Below, in pieces: positions 3,479 to 54,021 of a DNA stretch of 64,000 nt (its first letter is position 1; every line of letters begins with the position of its first letter). The notes under the pieces were generated by a model. The model did not search any database, was not told the origin of the DNA, and saw nothing but the letters and a program-made list of their open reading frames with translations. This DNA is from Halorubrum sp. CBA1229 (GTDB lineage Archaea > Halobacteriota > Halobacteria > Halobacteriales > Haloferacaceae): the NCBI RefSeq assembly GCF_003721435.2, contig NZ_CP054585.1, positions 1,426,001 to 1,490,000 on the forward strand. Direction: 5' to 3'. Made by a program: the position numbers and the translations under genes.

Positions 3479-3550
3479 ACCGGCCCGTCGCGGCGGATTC
3501 GTAAGTCGGTTGCGGGTGTGGGAGAGAGAGTTCAGTATAAAGGAGAGTTC

Positions 3551-4072
3551 AGTATAAAGGGATGTTGCGGTGGCGCGCGCCTCCGAGCGCCCGCAGGGCG
3601 CGAGGAGCGCGTGCGAGGGAGCCCGCGGCTGCCAAAGGCAGCCGCGACGAGGCTGGGGAGGCGTGAGGCTGCGGTGACGGTGCGGTCGGGCGGGGCTCAA
3701 AGGGGCAGCCGCGAGGGCGAAGCCCGGCGCAGCAAGCACCGCAGCGAGCAACGCGAGCGAGGAGCACAGCAAGCCGCGCGAGTCGTCGCGGCTGGGGCTT
3801 TGGAGTTGTTCTCCGCCGATTTGGTGTCACTTGCTTATAAGTGAGCGGCTGGTGCTTTGGAGTTGTTCTCCGCCGATTTGGTGTCACTTGCTTATAAGTG
3901 AGCGGCTGGTGCTTTTGAGGTATCCACTGACGATCCGCCGTCAACCACGTATATCCGAGCGGCTGGGGCTTTGGACGTGTTCGCCATCGATCCGCAGTCA
4001 GCCGTTTACGGGCAAACGGTCGGTGATTTGGCAGTGTTCACCACCGACCCGATCACGACCGATTATAAACGA
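3551..4072 (+). repeat. Repeat element A: structured core plus five 57-bp tandem units
   Basis: A TATAAA box at 3553 is followed after 19 bp by the element core. Stem 1 is 3581-3607 (CTCC-GA-GCGCCC, loop GCA, GGGCGC-GA-GGAG). Stem 2 is CGCGGCTGCC/GGCAGCCGCG around 3624-3646. Stem 3 pairs CAGCCGCGA (3706-3714) with TCGCGGCTG (3786-3794). The conserved single-strand blocks GAGGCTGGGGAGGCGTGAGG, GGGCGGGGCTCAAAGGGGCAG and GGGGCTTTGGAG are present. The tail has units starting at 3788, 3845, 3902, 3959 and 4016, spaced exactly 57 bp; two are almost identical and several end in TTATAA. The first TATA box sits in a 17-bp tandem duplication (3526-3560). The element lies head-to-head with hisB and separates hisA from hisB. 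No protein-coding sense is apparent. Confidence 0.85.
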
Positions 4073-9032: not shown

Positions 9033-10149
9033 TCCGGAGCGCCGTCCCGCCGGCGGCGAGGCGCCCGCCCCCGACCCGGACCGCCCCCCGGCGGTCGAGC
9101 TCGACGGCGTGACGAAGCGGTACGGCGACACCGCCGCCGTCGACGACGTGAGCCTCCGAGTGCGCGAGGGCGAGTTCTTCACGCTGGTCGGTCCCTCGGG
9201 CTGCGGCAAGACGACGACGCTCCGGCTGATCGCGGGGTTCGAGGAGCCGACCGCGGGGACCGTCCGCTTCTCCGGCGAGTCGGTCGCGGGCGTGCCGCCC
9301 GAGGACCGCGACGTGGGCGTCGTCTTCCAGAACTACGCGCTGTTCCCGCACATGACCGTCGGCGAGAACGTCGGGTACGGGCTCAACTTCGCGGACCCGC
9401 CCGAGGGAATGAGTCGCGACGAGCGCGTCGCGGAGCTGCTGGAGCTGGTCGACCTCCCCGACGCCGCCGACCGCGAGCCCGAGAGCCTCTCCGGCGGGCA
9501 GCAGCAGCGCGTCGCGATGGCTCGCGCGCTCGCGCCCGGTCCCGACCTCCTCCTCTTAGACGAGCCGATGAGCGCGCTCGACGCGCAGCTCCGCGAGCGC
9601 CTCCGGGTGCAGGTCAGGGAGATCCAGTCGGAGCTCTCGATTACGACCGTCTACGTCACCCACGACCAGGAGGAGGCGCTGGCGATCTCCGACCGCGTGG
9701 CGGTGATGCGCGACGGAACACCGGAGCAGATCGCGCCCCCGCGGACCGTCTACCGCGAGCCGGCGACCCGGTTCGTCGCTGAGTTCGTCGGCGACAACAA
9801 CGTGTTCGCGGGCCGGGTCACGGCGATCGAGGGCACCTCCGGGGGATCCACCGCCGCCGTCGACGCCGGCGGCGAGACGCTCCGCGTCAGGGTCGGCGGG
9901 GCCACCGACGTCGCCGTCGGCGACCGCCTCACCTTCTCGGTCCGGCCCGAGTACCTGCGGATCGACGAGGGGGAGAGCCGGCTCGCGGCGACCGTCGCGA
10001 GCGCGGAGTTCCTCGGCGAGACGACGCGCGTGACCCTCGACTGGGGCGGTCGCGACCTCGTCGTCCGGACGCGCGACCCGCTCTCCGGGGAGGTCGTCGT
10101 CGGCTTCGACCCCGAAGACGCGCACGTGATCGACGTCGACGCGGCGTGA
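9022..10149 (+). CDS. ABC transporter ATP-binding protein (thiamine/polyamine/iron type)
   Basis: A 375-residue ATPase that energises the preceding permease. It shows Walker A GPSGCGKTTT, Q-loop VVFQNYALFPHMTV, signature LSGGQQQRVAMARAL, Walker B LLLLDEPMSALD and the switch histidine in YVTHDQEEAL, followed by a C-terminal TOBE domain (FSVRPEYLRI). Such CysA/PotA-like length is longer than bacterial ThiQ. The GTG at 9022 was chosen because GGAGGTGA, a strong Shine-Dalgarno sequence, ends five bases before it; the start overlaps the permease stop by 11 bp. The operon ends here, just before repeat element B. Confidence 0.9.
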   Translation: MGSDPERRPAGGEAPAPDPDRPPAVELDGVTKRYGDTAAVDDVSLRVREGEFFTLVGPSGCGKTTTLRLIAGFEEPTAGTVRFSGESVAGVPPEDRDVGVVFQNYALFPHMTVGENVGYGLNFADPPEGMSRDERVAELLELVDLPDAADREPESLSGGQQQRVAMARALAPGPDLLLLDEPMSALDAQLRERLRVQVREIQSELSITTVYVTHDQEEALAISDRVAVMRDGTPEQIAPPRTVYREPATRFVAEFVGDNNVFAGRVTAIEGTSGGSTAAVDAGGETLRVRVGGATDVAVGDRLTFSVRPEYLRIDEGESRLAATVASAEFLGETTRVTLDWGGRDLVVRTRDPLSGEVVVGFDPEDAHVIDVDAA

Positions 10150-10159
10150 TTGACAACGG

Positions 10160-10692
10160 TTTATAAATAGCACATGCAGTTGGCGCGCGCCTCCGAGTGG
10201 CCGGTAGGCCACGAGGAGCGCCGCGCGAGGGAGTCGCTGGCGGCGCCTGCCGCCAGCGACGAGGCTTGGGGAGGCGTGAGGCTGCGGTGCGGTTGCGGGC
10301 GGGTGGGACTCAAAGGGGCAGCCGGGAGGCGGGCGCAGGCGACGCAAGCACTGGAGGGAGCGAACGAAGTGAGCGACCGAAGCGCGCAGCGAGCGTGCGC
10401 CCGCCTCCCGGCTGGGGCTTTGGAGGTGTTTTCCGTCACCGCGGCTGCAACGACGTACAGCCGAGCGGCTGGGGCTTTGGAGGTGTTTTCCGTCACCGCG
10501 GCTGCAACGACGTACAGCCGAGCGGCTGGGACTTTGGAGGTGTTTTCTGTCACCGCGTCAGCAACGACGTACAGCCGAGCGGCTGGGGCTTTGGCGGTGG
10601 TCACTGTCGATCCGGTCTCACTCAGTTATAAACAAACGCCCAGGACTGTAGAGGAGTTCACCGTGCCGTCAACAACCATGACGCAGTCGTTC
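10160..10692 (+). repeat. Repeat element B: best preserved copy, structured core plus five 57-bp units
   Basis: TTTATAAAT at 10160-10168 is followed by the core at 10182. Stem 1 is CTCC-GA-GTGGCC / GGCCAC-GA-GGAG, stem 2 TCGCTGGCGGC / GCCGCCAGCGA, and stem 3 a perfect 19-bp pair, 10319-10337 with 10396-10414. Compared with element A the stems differ in sequence but still pair. Conserved blocks GGGGAGGCGTGAGGCTGCGG, GGGACTCAAAGGGGCAG and CTGGGGCTTTGGAGGTGTT are intact. Tail units begin at 10408, 10465, 10522, 10579 and 10636, exactly 57 bp apart; the first three are nearly identical and the fifth is degenerate. The element fills the gap between the ABC ATPase gene and the TPR gene. It could be a structured RNA with its own promoter or a non-autonomous mobile element. 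Confidence 0.88.
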
Positions 10693-13423: not shown

Positions 13424-13519
13424 GGGATCCACCTGATGGATCGTATCGGGTCGCGAGACAGTATGTTCCTTGTGATATCCGCGAAAGGGAGAGCGGCGTT
13501 CGGGCGTGGAGGCCGCGCC

Positions 13520-13777
13520 CTAGCGCCAGTGCCAGAAGTCGTTGCCGTCGTCCTCGACGGGGTCGGTGCGCTCCCGGAGGTCGACGACGTCCGCTTCGGT
13601 GGGCTCGCGGTCGTCCGGGAGCCGCTCCATGCAGTCGAAACAGAGGAAGAACTCGGAGCCGTCGGCGAGCTCCAGGGTCATCCCCTGCGTCGACTCGAAC
13701 GCGAAGTTCCACAGGTCGCCGATCCCGCCGGCGATCCTGACGGACCGCTCGCAGACGTGGCACGACTCCGAGGCCAT
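13520..13777 (-). CDS. small zinc-ribbon-like haloarchaeal protein
   Basis: An 85-residue protein with two CxxC knuckles, CHVC at residues 6-9 and CFDC near residue 47, in a layout that should bind one zinc ion. The rest is strongly acidic (PDDREPTEADVVDLRERTD) and ends in FWHWR. The start is the ATG at 13777; the longer open frame upstream reads through repeat element C and is not real. Such proteins are common in haloarchaea and lack a known function; adaptor or nucleic-acid binding roles are plausible. Confidence 0.7.
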   Translation of the reverse strand: MASESCHVCERSVRIAGGIGDLWNFAFESTQGMTLELADGSEFFLCFDCMERLPDDREPTEADVVDLRERTDPVEDDGNDFWHWR

Positions 13778-13811: not shown

Positions 13812-14164
13812 CGGCGAATACGTTGTCGACGGCAGATGGACTTCGAGTAGCTTCGGGTCTCCGACCGCTTGTTTATAAACGGCCGACTGTGGATCGACGG
13901 TGAACACCTCCAAAGCCCCAGCCGGGAGGACTCGGGGGCCTCGTTGCGGTCCTCGGTCGCTCGCGCTGCTCGCTCCCTGCGGTCCTTACTTCGGCCGCCG
14001 TCGTCCTCCCGGCTGCCCCTTTGAGTCCCGCCCCGCACAGCACCGCAGCCTCACGCCTCCCCAGCCTCGTCGCTGGCGGCTGGCGCCGCCAGCGACTCCC
14101 TCGCGCGGCGCTCCTCGTGGCCTACCGGCCACTCGGAGGCGCGCGCCACCGCTCGTTTATAAAT
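13812..14164 (-). repeat. Repeat element C: structured core plus two 57-bp units, minus orientation
   Basis: Reading the minus strand, TTTATAAAC at 14164-14156 precedes the core. Stem 1 (CTCC-GA-GTGGCC/GGCCAC-GA-GGAG) matches element B, stem 2 is TCGCTGGCGGC/GCCGCCAGCGA with a GCCA loop, and stem 3 pairs CAGCCGGGAGGA with TCCTCCCGGCTG. The block GGGACTCAAAGGGGCAGCC is intact. One good tail unit (13925 to 13869, with TTTATAAAC) is followed by a degenerate one starting with GCGGTCGG at the expected 57-bp distance. The element lies between two divergent genes. A further TTTATAAA at 14190 followed by GTCGGGGCTTTG suggests a stray partial unit on the other strand. Confidence 0.82.
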
Positions 14165-19560: not shown

Positions 19561-19742
19561 TTTATAAATGGATCTGCGGTCGGCGCGTGCCTACGAGCGG
19601 GCCGTCGGCCCGCGAGGAGCACGCGCGACGAGGCTGGGCTTTGGCGGTGTTCACCGTCGATCCAGTATGAGCCGTTTATAAACGAGCGGTTGGGGGTTTG
19701 GAGCGGTCCACCGCCACCACGCTGAACTATAACTGAGTGACG
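19561..19742 (+). repeat. Repeat element D: internally deleted copy
   Basis: TTTATAAAT at 19561 leads into GGCGCGTGCC and stem 1, CTAC-GA-GCGGGCC, loop GTC, GGCCCGC-GA-GGAG, then the core jumps from CGACGAGGCTGGG straight into GCTTTGGCGGTGTTC of the first tail unit. Stem 2, stem 3 and the CTCAAAGGGGC block are missing. The junction is at GGCTGGGG, a word that occurs twice in complete copies, so a deletion between these short repeats explains it. Two tail units follow (19630 and 19686, one base short of 57), with TTTATAAAC at 19676-19684. Confidence 0.8.
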
Positions 19743-23094: not shown

Positions 23095-23462
23095 TCGTTT
23101 ATAAATAATTGACTAGAGACCGTTGGTGACCACCGCCAAAGCCCCAGCCGCTCGGCGATACGTCGTTGATGACGGATCGACAGCGAACACTTACGTCGCC
23201 TGCGCCCGCTTCGCGGCTGCCCCTTTGAGTCCCGCCCAACAGCACCACTGGAAGACGGTCCTGCTCGCTCACTGGGTTCGCTGCGCGGGCTGCGACTTCC
23301 ATGCTCCCGCTCGTTCCACTCGCGGGACCGCAACCGCACCTCACACCTCCCCAGCCTCGTCGGTGGTCCTTCGCTTCGCTCCGGACCACCGACTCCCTCG
23401 CGCGTGCACCTCGCGCCCTGCGGGCGCTCGGCGGCGCGCGCCACCACAGTCCATTTATAAAT
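23095..23462 (-). repeat. Repeat element E: copy with disrupted stem 3, minus orientation
   Basis: On the minus strand TTTATAAAT (23462-23454) precedes GGCGCGCGCC. Stem 1 is GCC-GA-GCGCCC/GGGCGC-GA-GGT, and stem 2 TCGGTGGTCC/GGACCACCGA with a 13-nt loop. A 95-bp unique stretch (about 23240-23330) separates GTGAGGTGCGGT from GGGCGGGACTCAAAGGGGCAG, longer than in other copies. The 5' strand of stem 3 is present (CAGCCGCGAAGCGG) but runs straight into a damaged tail unit, so its partner is lost. Units lie at 23208-23152 and 23151-23095, 57 bp apart, the last ending in TTTATAAA. Confidence 0.8.
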
Positions 23463-31385: not shown

Positions 31386-31762
31386 TTTATAAGTAAAGCT
31401 GTGCGGTGGCGCGTGCCACCGAGCGCCCACCGGGCGCGAGGTGCACGCGCGAGGGACGCGGTGAGCGCTCGAAGAGCGCGAACCGCGAGGCTGGGGAGGT
31501 GTGAGGCTGCGGTCGCGGTGGGGGCGGGACTCAAAGGGGCGGTCGCGAGGGCGAAGCACGCCGCAGCAAGCACCGCAGCGAGCGATAGCGAGCGAGGAGC
31601 GCAGCAAGGCGCGCGAGACGTCGCGGCCGGGGCTTTGGAGGTGTTCGTCCTCGCTCCGTCAGCGGCTGCGTATACCCGAGCGGCCGGGGCTTTGGAGGTG
31701 TTTACCGGCGATCCGCAGCTGTCCGCCTATAAACAACCGACTCGGAGTTCTCACTCCGCTTA
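31386..31762 (+). repeat. Repeat element F: structured core plus two full 57-bp units
   Basis: TTTATAAG at 31386 is followed by GGCGCGTGCC. Stem 1 is CACC-GA-GCGCCC, loop ACC, GGGCGC-GA-GGTG; compared with element A the outer CTCC/GGAG has changed to CACC/GGTG on both sides. Stem 2 is GCGGT...ACCGC with an inner GCGCT/AGCGC. Stem 3 pairs CGGTCGCGA with TCGCGGCCG, where one A-T has become G-C and one C-G has become T-G. Tail units start at 31623 and 31680, with a partial third at 31737. The element lies between mdh and a small membrane protein gene. Confidence 0.85.
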
Positions 31763-42270: not shown

Positions 42271-42690
42271 TTGTTTATAAGTGGTCGACCGCGGAGTGCC
42301 GGTGAACGCTTCCGAAGCCCCAGCCGCTCGTTTATAAACCGTTGCCGGTGGATCCGCGACGGACTCCGCCAAATCCCCAGCCGCTCGTTTATAAATAGTT
42401 GACCGCGGATCGGCGACGAACCCCTCCAAAGCCCCAGTCGCGAGGGCGACGTACGCTCGCTGTGCTCCTCGGTCGCTCACTGCGTTCGCTCCCTGCGGTG
42501 CTTGCGTCGCCTACGTCGCCCTCGCGACTGCCCCTTTGAGTCCCACCCGGACCGCACCGCAACCGCACCTCACACCTCCCCAGCCTCGTCGGCCTCCCTT
42601 CGGTCGGCCGACTCCCTCGCGCGTGCGACTCGCGGCCTCCGCTTCGCTCCGGCCGCTCGCAGGCACGCGCCGCCGCGCCGCCGATACGCA
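42271..42690 (-). repeat. Repeat element G: structured core plus three 57-bp units, minus orientation
   Basis: Reading the minus strand from 42690, GGCGCGTGCC leads to stem 1 (GC-GA-GCGGCC, 13-nt loop, GGCCGC-GA-GT), stem 2 (GTCGGCC/GGCCGAC), the GAGGCTGGGGAGGTGTGAGG block, GGGACTCAAAGGGGCAG, and stem 3, a perfect 19-bp pair of 42512-42530 with 42435-42453 (CAGTCGCGAGGGCGACGTA-type). In stem 3 the fourth pair is T-A where A and B have C-G. Tail units begin at 42441, 42384 and 42327, exactly 57 bp apart, each with TTTATAAA. The usual TATA box before the core is degenerate here. Confidence 0.85.
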
Positions 42691-52306: not shown

Positions 52307-52683
52307 TACCGGTGTAAAATGGACTCTACCCCTTAAATTCACCGCTTTAGATATTGCATAAAAACGGCGGCGGCGACGCTCGCGGAGGACGTAGCTGTCA
52401 CTCTACGAGACGAAACGGCGCGAACGCGACGAGGGAATGAAGATTACTGGCCCGAGGGGGCCCGTCGTCGCGCCGCGCCGGAAGCCGGTCGCGGCGGTCG
52501 GACGCCTCGTCGCGGTCGCGGGGCTCGTCGGCCTCGGAAAAGGGCGGCGTCGAGACGAGCCTCCGCGTTCATCACCTGTACCTACCCGAGTTTCGGTATA
52601 AAAACATTCCGCAACGGCGCTGTGACCCCCTCTCGATTCCGCGTTTTACCGGATGATCGGTTATAAGCGATCGTCGGCGTCGC
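52307..52683. other. argG upstream region with possible leader ORF
   Basis: The gap between argG and hemL holds the argG TATA box (52329-52340), the arg motif at 52353-52367 (ATTGCATAAAAACGG) and, on the minus strand, a 42-codon frame at 52572-52444 with GGTATAAAAAC 25-33 bp before its ATG. That frame has 12 arginines among 42 codons and ends 138 bp before argG. A plus-strand frame of 54 codons (from 52438) overlaps it. GATCGGTTATAAGCGATC at 52659-52676, a near-palindrome just past the hemL stop, may be a transcription end or a promoter. Confidence 0.5.
52353..52367 (-). promoter_or_regulatory. candidate operator upstream of argG
   Basis: CCGTTTTTATGCAAT on the minus strand sits about 15 bp upstream of the argG TATA box and matches a word at the same relative place before lysW (CCGTTTTATGTAAA), apart from one extra T and a C/T change. 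It is a candidate site for an arginine-responsive regulator. Confidence 0.4.
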
Positions 52684-54021
52684 TCAGATCGCTTCCCGAT
52701 ACGCCTCCAGCGTCCGCTCAACGTCCTCCTCCGTGTGCGCGTACGAGGTGAACTGGCACTCGAACTGGTTCGCGGTGAGGAACACGCCCCGCTCTTTCAT
52801 CTCCTGCCAGAACACCCGCTCCCAGCGGTCGGTGGCGGCGTCGGCGACGTCGGCGCCCGTCTTCGGACAGCTGTCGTACCGGGCGCAGTCGGGGTCCTGC
52901 CGACAGCCGCCGGCGCAGCAGGCGTCCGAGTCGTCGGGCGCGTCACGCGTGAAGACCGTCTTGAACATCGAGTCGGTGCCGACGACGGTGTACTCCGGCG
53001 CGCGCTCCGCGCAGATCTCGGCCATCCCCTCGCGGAGCTTCCGCCCGAGACGGTTGACGTGCTCGTACACGTCGTTCTCGGCGGCGTACTCCAGTCCGGC
53101 CTTCCCGGCCGCCATCGTCACCGGGTGTCCCGAGAAGGTGCCGGACTGGAACACGTCGCCGGCGGGCGTGAACTCCTCGATGATATCCGCCCGCCCGCCG
53201 ATCGCGCCGACCGGGAACCCGCCGCCGATGATCTTCCCGAAGGTGGTGACGTCGGGCGTGACGCCGAACTTCGACTGCGCGCAGCCGAGGCCGCCGACGC
53301 GGAACCCGGTGATCACCTCGTCGAAGACCAGGAGGGCGCCGTGGTCGTCACACAGCTCCCGGAGCGTCTCGTGGTAGCCGTCCACGGGCATCACGATCCC
53401 CATGTTGGCGAGGATCGGCTCGACGAGGACGGCGGCGATCTCGTCGCCGTGCTCCTCGAACACCGCTTTTGCGGCCTCCGGGTCGTTGAACGGGATCGGG
53501 AGGGTGTGCTCGGCGAACTCCTCGGGGATCCCGGCCGTCGACGGGTGCGCGTCCCCCGGCGACCCCTCGACGAGCGTCGACTCCTGCGCGCCGTGGTAAC
53601 CCCCCTGCATGACGACGATCTTGTCGCGGTCGGTGTGACCGCGCGCCAGCCGCACCGCGGACACAGTCGCCTCCGTCCCCGAGTTGACGAACCGGATCGA
53701 CTCGACGCTCGGGACGTGGCGCGCCACGAACTCGGCGTACTCGACCTCGATCTCGGTCGGCGCGCCGTACATCGGCCCCTCCGCGACGTGCGACTGGACC
53801 GCCGCCTCGACCGGGTCGGGCAGGTCGTGGCCGTACAGCAGCGGGCCGTACCCCATCACCCAGTCGACGTACCGGTTGCCGTCGGCGTCGATGACGTGGC
53901 CGCCGTCCCCGCGCTCGACGAAGAAGGGGTGCGGCATCGTCGCCCGGACGGAGGAGTTGACCCCGCCGGGCATCACCGACAGCGCGCGGTCGTACAGCCC
54001 GCGGGAGCGCTCGTGGTTCAT
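52684..54021 (-). CDS. hemL: glutamate-1-semialdehyde 2,1-aminomutase
   Basis: A 445-residue class III PLP enzyme that makes 5-aminolevulinate for tetrapyrroles. [52 protein letters not shown] and the Schiff-base lysine in [16 protein letters not shown] fit the family. Residues 366-387 form an insert with five cysteines (Cys368, 369, 373, 379, 385; [14 protein letters not shown]...SCPKTG) that bacterial HemL lacks; it could bind metal. The start [13 protein letters not shown] at 54021 is the natural one. Confidence 0.95.

Follow-up and report, generated by a model that had tools for sequence, protein, structure and literature searches.

REP and BIME sequences of bacteria are short, palindromic and intergenic, occur in dozens to hundreds of copies and are mosaic. 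The element described here shares these properties, which also apply to the bacterial BOX and RUP repeats (PMC3049150). However, the sequence of the element is unrelated to all of these repeats, its multi-hairpin fold is much longer, and its conserved motifs are rich in G tracts. Haloquadratum offers the closest comparison that we found, namely its palindrome-associated transposable elements (PATEs) and its small mobile repeats (PMC3119063). Like the PATEs of Haloquadratum walsbyi, the element is non-coding, is present in many copies in a haloarchaeon and has palindromes near its ends, and in both cases no terminal inverted repeats are seen, the core can be deleted and small hairpin inserts are nested within. 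In contrast to PATEs, which are defined by a link to an IS200/IS605 transposase, the element showed no such link at the loci examined, and it differs further in being a two-module composite with strand-asymmetric covariation, a TATA-like box at a fixed place and an order-wide distribution. The SMR-A repeats of Haloquadratum insert into PATE palindromes (PMC3119063) and resemble not the element but the double-hairpin inserts nested in it, which measure about 55-80 nt compared to about 110 nt for SMR-A. The omega-RNAs of haloarchaeal IS200/IS605 elements (RF02656, RF02657; PMC12558985) are comparable as structured RNAs of a haloarchaeal mobile element, but the present element has no Rfam match and is unattached to tnpB. 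The literature that we searched held no description of it.

The interval 10182-10414 of the window (the whole 64,000-nt stretch of DNA that was analysed) had been marked in the initial annotation as the core of an element with compensating base changes. The interval does correspond to one copy, copy B at 10182-10422, but the element is larger and runs from a TATA-like box at 10160 to tandem units that end at about 10600. The window comes from an archaeon that groups with Halorubrum: in an exact-pattern scan of named genomes, Halorubrum records were listed for almost all of the stretches, at least 120 in number. Copy B lies between a gene for an ABC-transporter ATPase (stop at 10149) and a gene for a TPR protein (start at about 10719). 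Pattern searches with the motif GGNACTCAAAGGGGCAG, allowing up to two mismatches, gave about 98 copies (61 forward, 37 reverse) on the 3.2-Mb chromosome that carries the window, and the copies were intergenic and gene-free. The copies in the window are as follows:

3553-4070, plus strand: copy A, with four tandem units
10182-10422, plus strand: copy B, with stem 2 at 10233-10260 and the arms of stem 3 at 10311-10337 and 10396-10422
13866-14163, minus strand: copy C, inverted relative to copy B, with its 5′ 90 nt 98% identical to copy B
19561-19720, plus strand: copy D, a remnant in which stem 1 is followed by GAGGCTGGG fused to CTTTGGCGGTG, with stems 2 and 3 gone
23136-23461, minus strand: copy E, with an insert of about 80 nt ahead of module II and stem 3 truncated or broken
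31386-31706, plus strand: copy F
42312-42690, minus strand: copy G, with tandem units

The fusion point in copy D was the common GGCTGGG.

We narrowly favour the reading that this is an interspersed haloarchaeal element, non-autonomous and present in many copies, which carries a folded nucleic acid specific to one strand. This nucleic acid is most likely an RNA that is started near the element's own TATA-like box. The folded nucleic acid would be made as a transcript or be exposed as a single strand, the element would be moved by machinery supplied in trans, and the fold would be what this machinery or the host recognises; no dedicated service to the adjoining genes would be involved. The reading is supported by the copy number, the absence of copies from the second replicon, the covariation, the strand asymmetry of module II, the TATA-like box at a fixed distance, the separable modules, the occupied and unoccupied sites and the variable orientation to flanking genes; intergenic placement and exchange of hairpins among copies were observed as well.

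When copies were placed side by side, the order from 5′ to 3′ was a TATA-like box, GGTGGCGCG, stem 1 with hairpin 1 (hp1), GAGGGA, stem 2 (hp2), GAGGCTGGGGAGGNGTGAGG, a G-rich linker ending in GGGYGGGACTC, and stem 3, which starts with CAAAG-GGG-CAG and ends with CTG-GGG-CTTTG. Stem 3 is followed by zero to four additional units reading CGGCTGGGGCTTTGGAGG, usually at a spacing of 57 nt. In copy B the parts are located as follows:

10160-10169, plus strand: TATA-like box, at a fixed distance upstream of the element start
10182-10232, plus strand: stem 1 and hp1 of module I, with the P1 arms at 10183-10194 and 10215-10226 and the apical hp1 at 10197-10212, based on covarying pairs at E<=0.05
10233-10260, plus strand: stem 2 (hp2) of module I, based on covarying pairs
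10261-10281, plus strand: conserved GAGGCTTGGGGAGGCGTGAGG 3′ of stem 2, a motif found in 52 of 52 Halorubrum genomes
10301-10319, plus strand: GGGTGGGACTCAAAGGGGC, the 5′ side of module II, with GGG tracts that may join the GGG/GGG bubble
10311-10422, plus strand: stem 3 (P3) of module II, CAAAG-GGG-CAGCCGGGAGGCGGGCGCA / TGCGCCCGCCTCCCGGCTG-GGG-CTTTG with a conserved inner loop, based on covarying pairs and on a closing pair that switches from C-G to G-C across genera
10409-10599, plus strand: 57-nt tandem units, in each of which the 3′ side of stem 3 (CGGCTGGGGCTTTGG) comes first; TRF period 57, 3.4 copies

The P1 arms are separated from hp1 by tandem G.A mismatches. Over 187 copies, a TATA-like motif started 15-19 nt upstream of GGTGGCG 140 times, compared to 0-12 times per 5-nt bin farther upstream. 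The usual spacing from the TATA box to the transcription start in archaea is about 25-30 nt, and thus a start would fall within the 5′ arm of stem 1, which counts against the favoured reading. Some hairpins (hp1 in L004, L020 and L197, hp2 elsewhere) formed perfect palindromes with TTATAA at the centre, and the TATA-like boxes at the element's two ends have these same letters.

A protein-coding element was rejected because the lengths of the hairpins, linker and stem 3 were spread over all residues modulo 3. The 57-nt tandem unit gave 193 matches genome-wide, and its spacing was a multiple of three in 147 of 158 cases (57, 54, 51 or 48), reading roughly AGALEVFTADPPSTIYKRA. Despite these lengths, coding by the tandem units was not accepted, since the best frame was interrupted by a stop in 33 of 147, and the codon positions were equally variable, with no codon-position signal.

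Two separable modules make up the composite core, and each of them also occurs alone. Module I, consisting of P1, hp1, hp2 and GAGGCTGGGGAGG, was represented by its motif in all 52 Halorubrum genomes, at 9-195 per genome, and a control search with the reversed pattern gave 0-2 matches. Module II (GGGACTSAAAGGGGC-stem-GGGGCTTTS), searched as GGGACTGAAAGGGGC, was found in 172 of 323 genomes and in 55 of the 88 genera of the order, including 48 of the 52 Halorubrum genomes. Module I occurred without module II in four genomes (G130, G139, G145 and G153), which gave no match to the module II motif; the majority of elements read there stop after GAGGCTGGGGAGGNGTGAGG, and some repeat GAGGCTGGGGAGGNGTGAGG every 16 nt. 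Conversely, many other genera had module II without module I, and a distant match to module II was located within an unannotated gap of the Haloarcula marismortui plasmid pNG500. At one site in the genome G113 (L188), module I and the tandem units were kept and stem 3 was absent. As a separate observation, three loci (L329 and L333 in G139, L334 in G145) contained GAGGCTGGGGAGGTGT in G-rich tandem arrays with a period of 16 or 32, and these genomes gave no module II match. An origin from a virus or plasmid was considered and rejected: phage records gave no match, and matches on six plasmids were partial. Seven viral contigs contained the motif.

The initial annotation had quoted base-paired strings from several copies and held that both sides of three stems change together. 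All of these strings were located at copies in the window. Copy A has CGCGGCTGCC/GGCAGCCGCG and CAGCCGCGA/TCGCGGCTG at about 3624-3800, stem 2 is alike in copies B and C (the stems of C lie on the minus strand at 13910-14163), and copy E has TCGGTGGTCC/GGACCACCGA as stem 2 at 23360-23392. Copy F (31386-31640) has CGGTCGCGA/TCGCGGCCG and CACC/GGTG in stem 1, and copy G (42426-42690, minus strand) has CAGTCGCGAGG/CCTCGCGACTG and GTCGGCC/GGCCGAC. The quoted switches were also present, namely A-T to G-C at pair 2, C-G to T-A or T-G at pair 4, and CTCC/GGAG to CACC/GGTG.

Both the pairing and the double changes were far beyond chance. In a set of 19 intact copies, pairing was possible for 97.4% of the stem cells, compared to 87.4% when partners were shuffled and 33-44% when the arms were slid, and both sides had changed in 115 cells, compared to 32 after shuffling and at most 11 after sliding. 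The consensus fold of these copies had 65 pairs, of which 32 showed at least one double change. The inner stretches of stem 3 kept their pairing too, and the 207 copies of hp2 comprised 157 distinct sequences that were 98% Watson-Crick paired. For a tree-aware covariation test, which we re-implemented ourselves on the model of R-scape, 147 distinct Halorubrum copies were trimmed to 94 aligned columns and a tree was built; APC-corrected G statistics were then compared with those of 300 alignments made by re-dealing the same substitutions along the tree. On these trimmed columns, ten of 4,186 column pairs were significant at E<=0.05, all ten were proposed base pairs, and they were distributed over P1, hp1, hp2 and P3. 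The concern that a large alignment might contain no significantly covarying pairs can thus be set aside. The pair that closes stem 3 switched between C-G and G-C across genera, being C...G in 213 of 218 Halorubrum copies and G...C in all 29 copies from other genera in which the 3′ side could be read.

Covariation by itself may be read in two ways, since double changes could also arise from the copying of DNA. According to one alternative, these are palindromic repeats at the DNA level, similar to REP/BIME, in which the arms are kept matched by template switching or by gene conversion between copies. On this view RNA plays no part, and the covariation would arise without a transcript being under selection. 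Several observations agree with this. Evolution through G.U in an RNA should favour transitions, but among nearest alleles the transition:transversion ratio of pair swaps was 45:39 for stem 3 and 5:6 for stem 2, similar to that of single mutations (23:16 and 29:16, respectively). On single branches of the tree, 213 double changes led from one Watson-Crick pair to another, more than the one-sided changes to a mismatch (about 173). At orthologous sites one hairpin could be replaced as a block with the remainder unchanged (L130 compared to L018), and mismatches in stem 2 were symmetric (7 G.T and 6 A.C). The pattern in stem 2 and hp1 is what template switching from arm to arm or gene conversion between copies would leave.

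Stem 3 behaved differently from stem 2. Its distinct 13-bp stems contained 68 G.T compared to 23 A.C mismatches (p=2.5e-6), or 43 compared to 18 when pair 4 was left out (p=0.002), counted, as throughout except in the tree-aware test, with related copies treated as independent. One-sided changes inferred on the tree were 59 to G.U and 30 to A.C. The excess of G.T over A.C suggests that one strand, either RNA or single-stranded DNA, is under selection, and the asymmetry fits single-stranded DNA equally well as RNA. Selection on a single strand explains both this asymmetry and the conserved mismatches of stem 3. Together with conservation of the motifs between stems and the continued pairing of the inner part of stem 3, these argue against repeats matched at the DNA level. 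We regard the DNA-level account as possible but rather doubtful. The proposal that selection on structure best explains the double changes stands as regards conservation of the structure, but not as regards selection being the sole driver of every compensating change. Our conclusion is that selection acts on the fold, with module II as the clearest case, and that many of the double changes probably come from gene conversion or template switching. Recent inverted duplication within each copy is refuted for stem 3 by the conserved mismatches and the strand asymmetry. For stem 2 and hp1 the case against it is weaker, given the block replacement, the palindromes, the symmetric mismatches of stem 2 and the ratio of the pair swaps, and in stem 2 the arms may have been copied from a template. 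The hundreds of natural variants constitute a test set for whether compensating changes originate from selection on RNA or from the copying of palindrome arms.

In a more specific version of a transcribed element, it would be a SINE-like archaeal RNA in which module II forms a three-tetrad G-quadruplex set into a hairpin, and it would spread by copying of this RNA or of the matching single strand. The GGG/GGG bubble of stem 3 and the upstream GGGYGGG would provide the four GGG tracts, and such a fold would be favoured by the K+-rich cytoplasm of haloarchaea. GGGnGGGACT was present in 194 of 227 Halorubrum copies, and GGGn preceded GGGACT in 25 of 32 copies from other genera, compared to a background of 1.9% for GGG. 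The bubble was kept in 213 of 218 copies, and of the 109 copies with a stem that extends to pair 20, 97 had G.G there. No mention of such an element was seen in the archaeal quadruplex papers that were searched by keyword. As a reading of the sequence, we consider the quadruplex version unlikely.

Many copies were at orthologous positions across species, and sites occupied in one genome and unoccupied in another were also found. Examples are L118 compared to window 13477-13526 (left flank 96% identical), L122 compared to window 52613-52694, L027 compared to L056, and copies E and G compared to G113. The unoccupied sites could be losses rather than gains. Terminal inverted repeats, target-site duplications and exact boundaries were not found, the intergenic flanks being too diverged to align even between genomes of about 90% identity (91% for the nearest relative). 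Neither an autonomous partner nor coding capacity nor a transposase was found. In a comparison with G113 (about 91%), which is the nearest of the relatives that have a long assembly, synteny was broken at 3521/4100, 10386/10648 and 13831/14167, which correspond to copies A, B and C and are all three breaks of the local rearrangement. Copies B and C are inverted relative to each other and flank a 3.2-kb segment, with 90 nt in common at 98% identity, and breaks at these copies are expected if inverted copies recombine. Since the element marks inversion breakpoints, it probably shapes haloarchaeal chromosomes.

The placement of the copies may instead suggest a service to the host, with the element kept at gene ends as a bidirectional transcription stop, an mRNA 3′-end stabiliser or a chromosome-organising site. 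With flanking genes called by us from codon-position GC, the arrangements were +E+ 19, -E- 28, +E- 31 and -E+ 10, so that convergent gaps were the commonest and divergent gaps the rarest. The element was also confined to the chromosome, as the motif GGNACTCAAAGGGGCAG gave no copies on the 364-kb second replicon (G000 C2), where we calculated that about 10 would be expected from its length, and the orthologous placement of many copies across species points in the same direction. However, insertion followed by selection against damage to promoters gives a convergent bias too, and neither the range of 9-195 copies among related genomes nor sites that are occupied in one species and empty in another fit a host function well. 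We find a host-serving site improbable. A role as a cis-regulator of adjoining genes was rejected, since the orientation relative to the flanking genes was inconsistent.

The likeness to the PATEs of Haloquadratum raised the alternative that the element is what remains of an IS200/IS605 transposon, with TnpA as the enzyme that moves it and possibly with a guide-RNA scaffold on board. The palindromes near the ends, the lack of terminal inverted repeats, the core deletions and the nested hairpin inserts would all fit (PMC3119063). However, the element motifs were found at none of 30 IS200/IS605 TnpA loci, and they were tied to none of 16 TnpB loci, where one had a separate element about 1 kb away and another a lone match to the tandem unit. 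An IS200/IS605 partner was rejected because the ends were not common to any of these loci. Furthermore, TnpA (Y1_Tnp) was not found in the element-rich genomes G105, G119, G123 and G133, which have about 70-100 copies. A known RNA family, including the omega-RNAs, was also rejected, given that no Rfam covariance model matched even though Rfam includes haloarchaeal omega-RNA families: at gathering scores the window gave only tRNA, at E up to 1 the element gave one chance match at 0.7, and the element was unmatched at six loci from other genera. A PATE-like origin is thus very unlikely. Returning to the favoured reading of an element moved in trans, it has no family in Rfam despite reaching about 195 copies per genome, occurring in all Halorubrum genomes examined and having relatives in more than half of the genomes sampled from the order. 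Were it transcribed, it would rank among the more numerous structured RNA families of any archaeon.

Other repeats were associated with the element. Double-hairpin inserts of about 55-80 nt were nested in hairpins of many copies (L016, L023, L195, L202, L207-L210 and others), an example being GAGGGACC..GGTCCCTC TGGCAG CCGGCGG..CCGCCGG CGACA. A common block of about 80 nt (GGAAGTCGCAGCCCGCG...AGCAGGACCGTCTTCC) was located between the modules or in stem 3, in copy E (window 23240-23335) and in L190, L191, L198 and L199, and it was also present in L221 and L230 from other genera; this block looks like a separate repeat in its own right. Finally, in L212, near position 1497, the inner loop of stem 3 was inverted relative to the other copies, as if by recombination between the arms.
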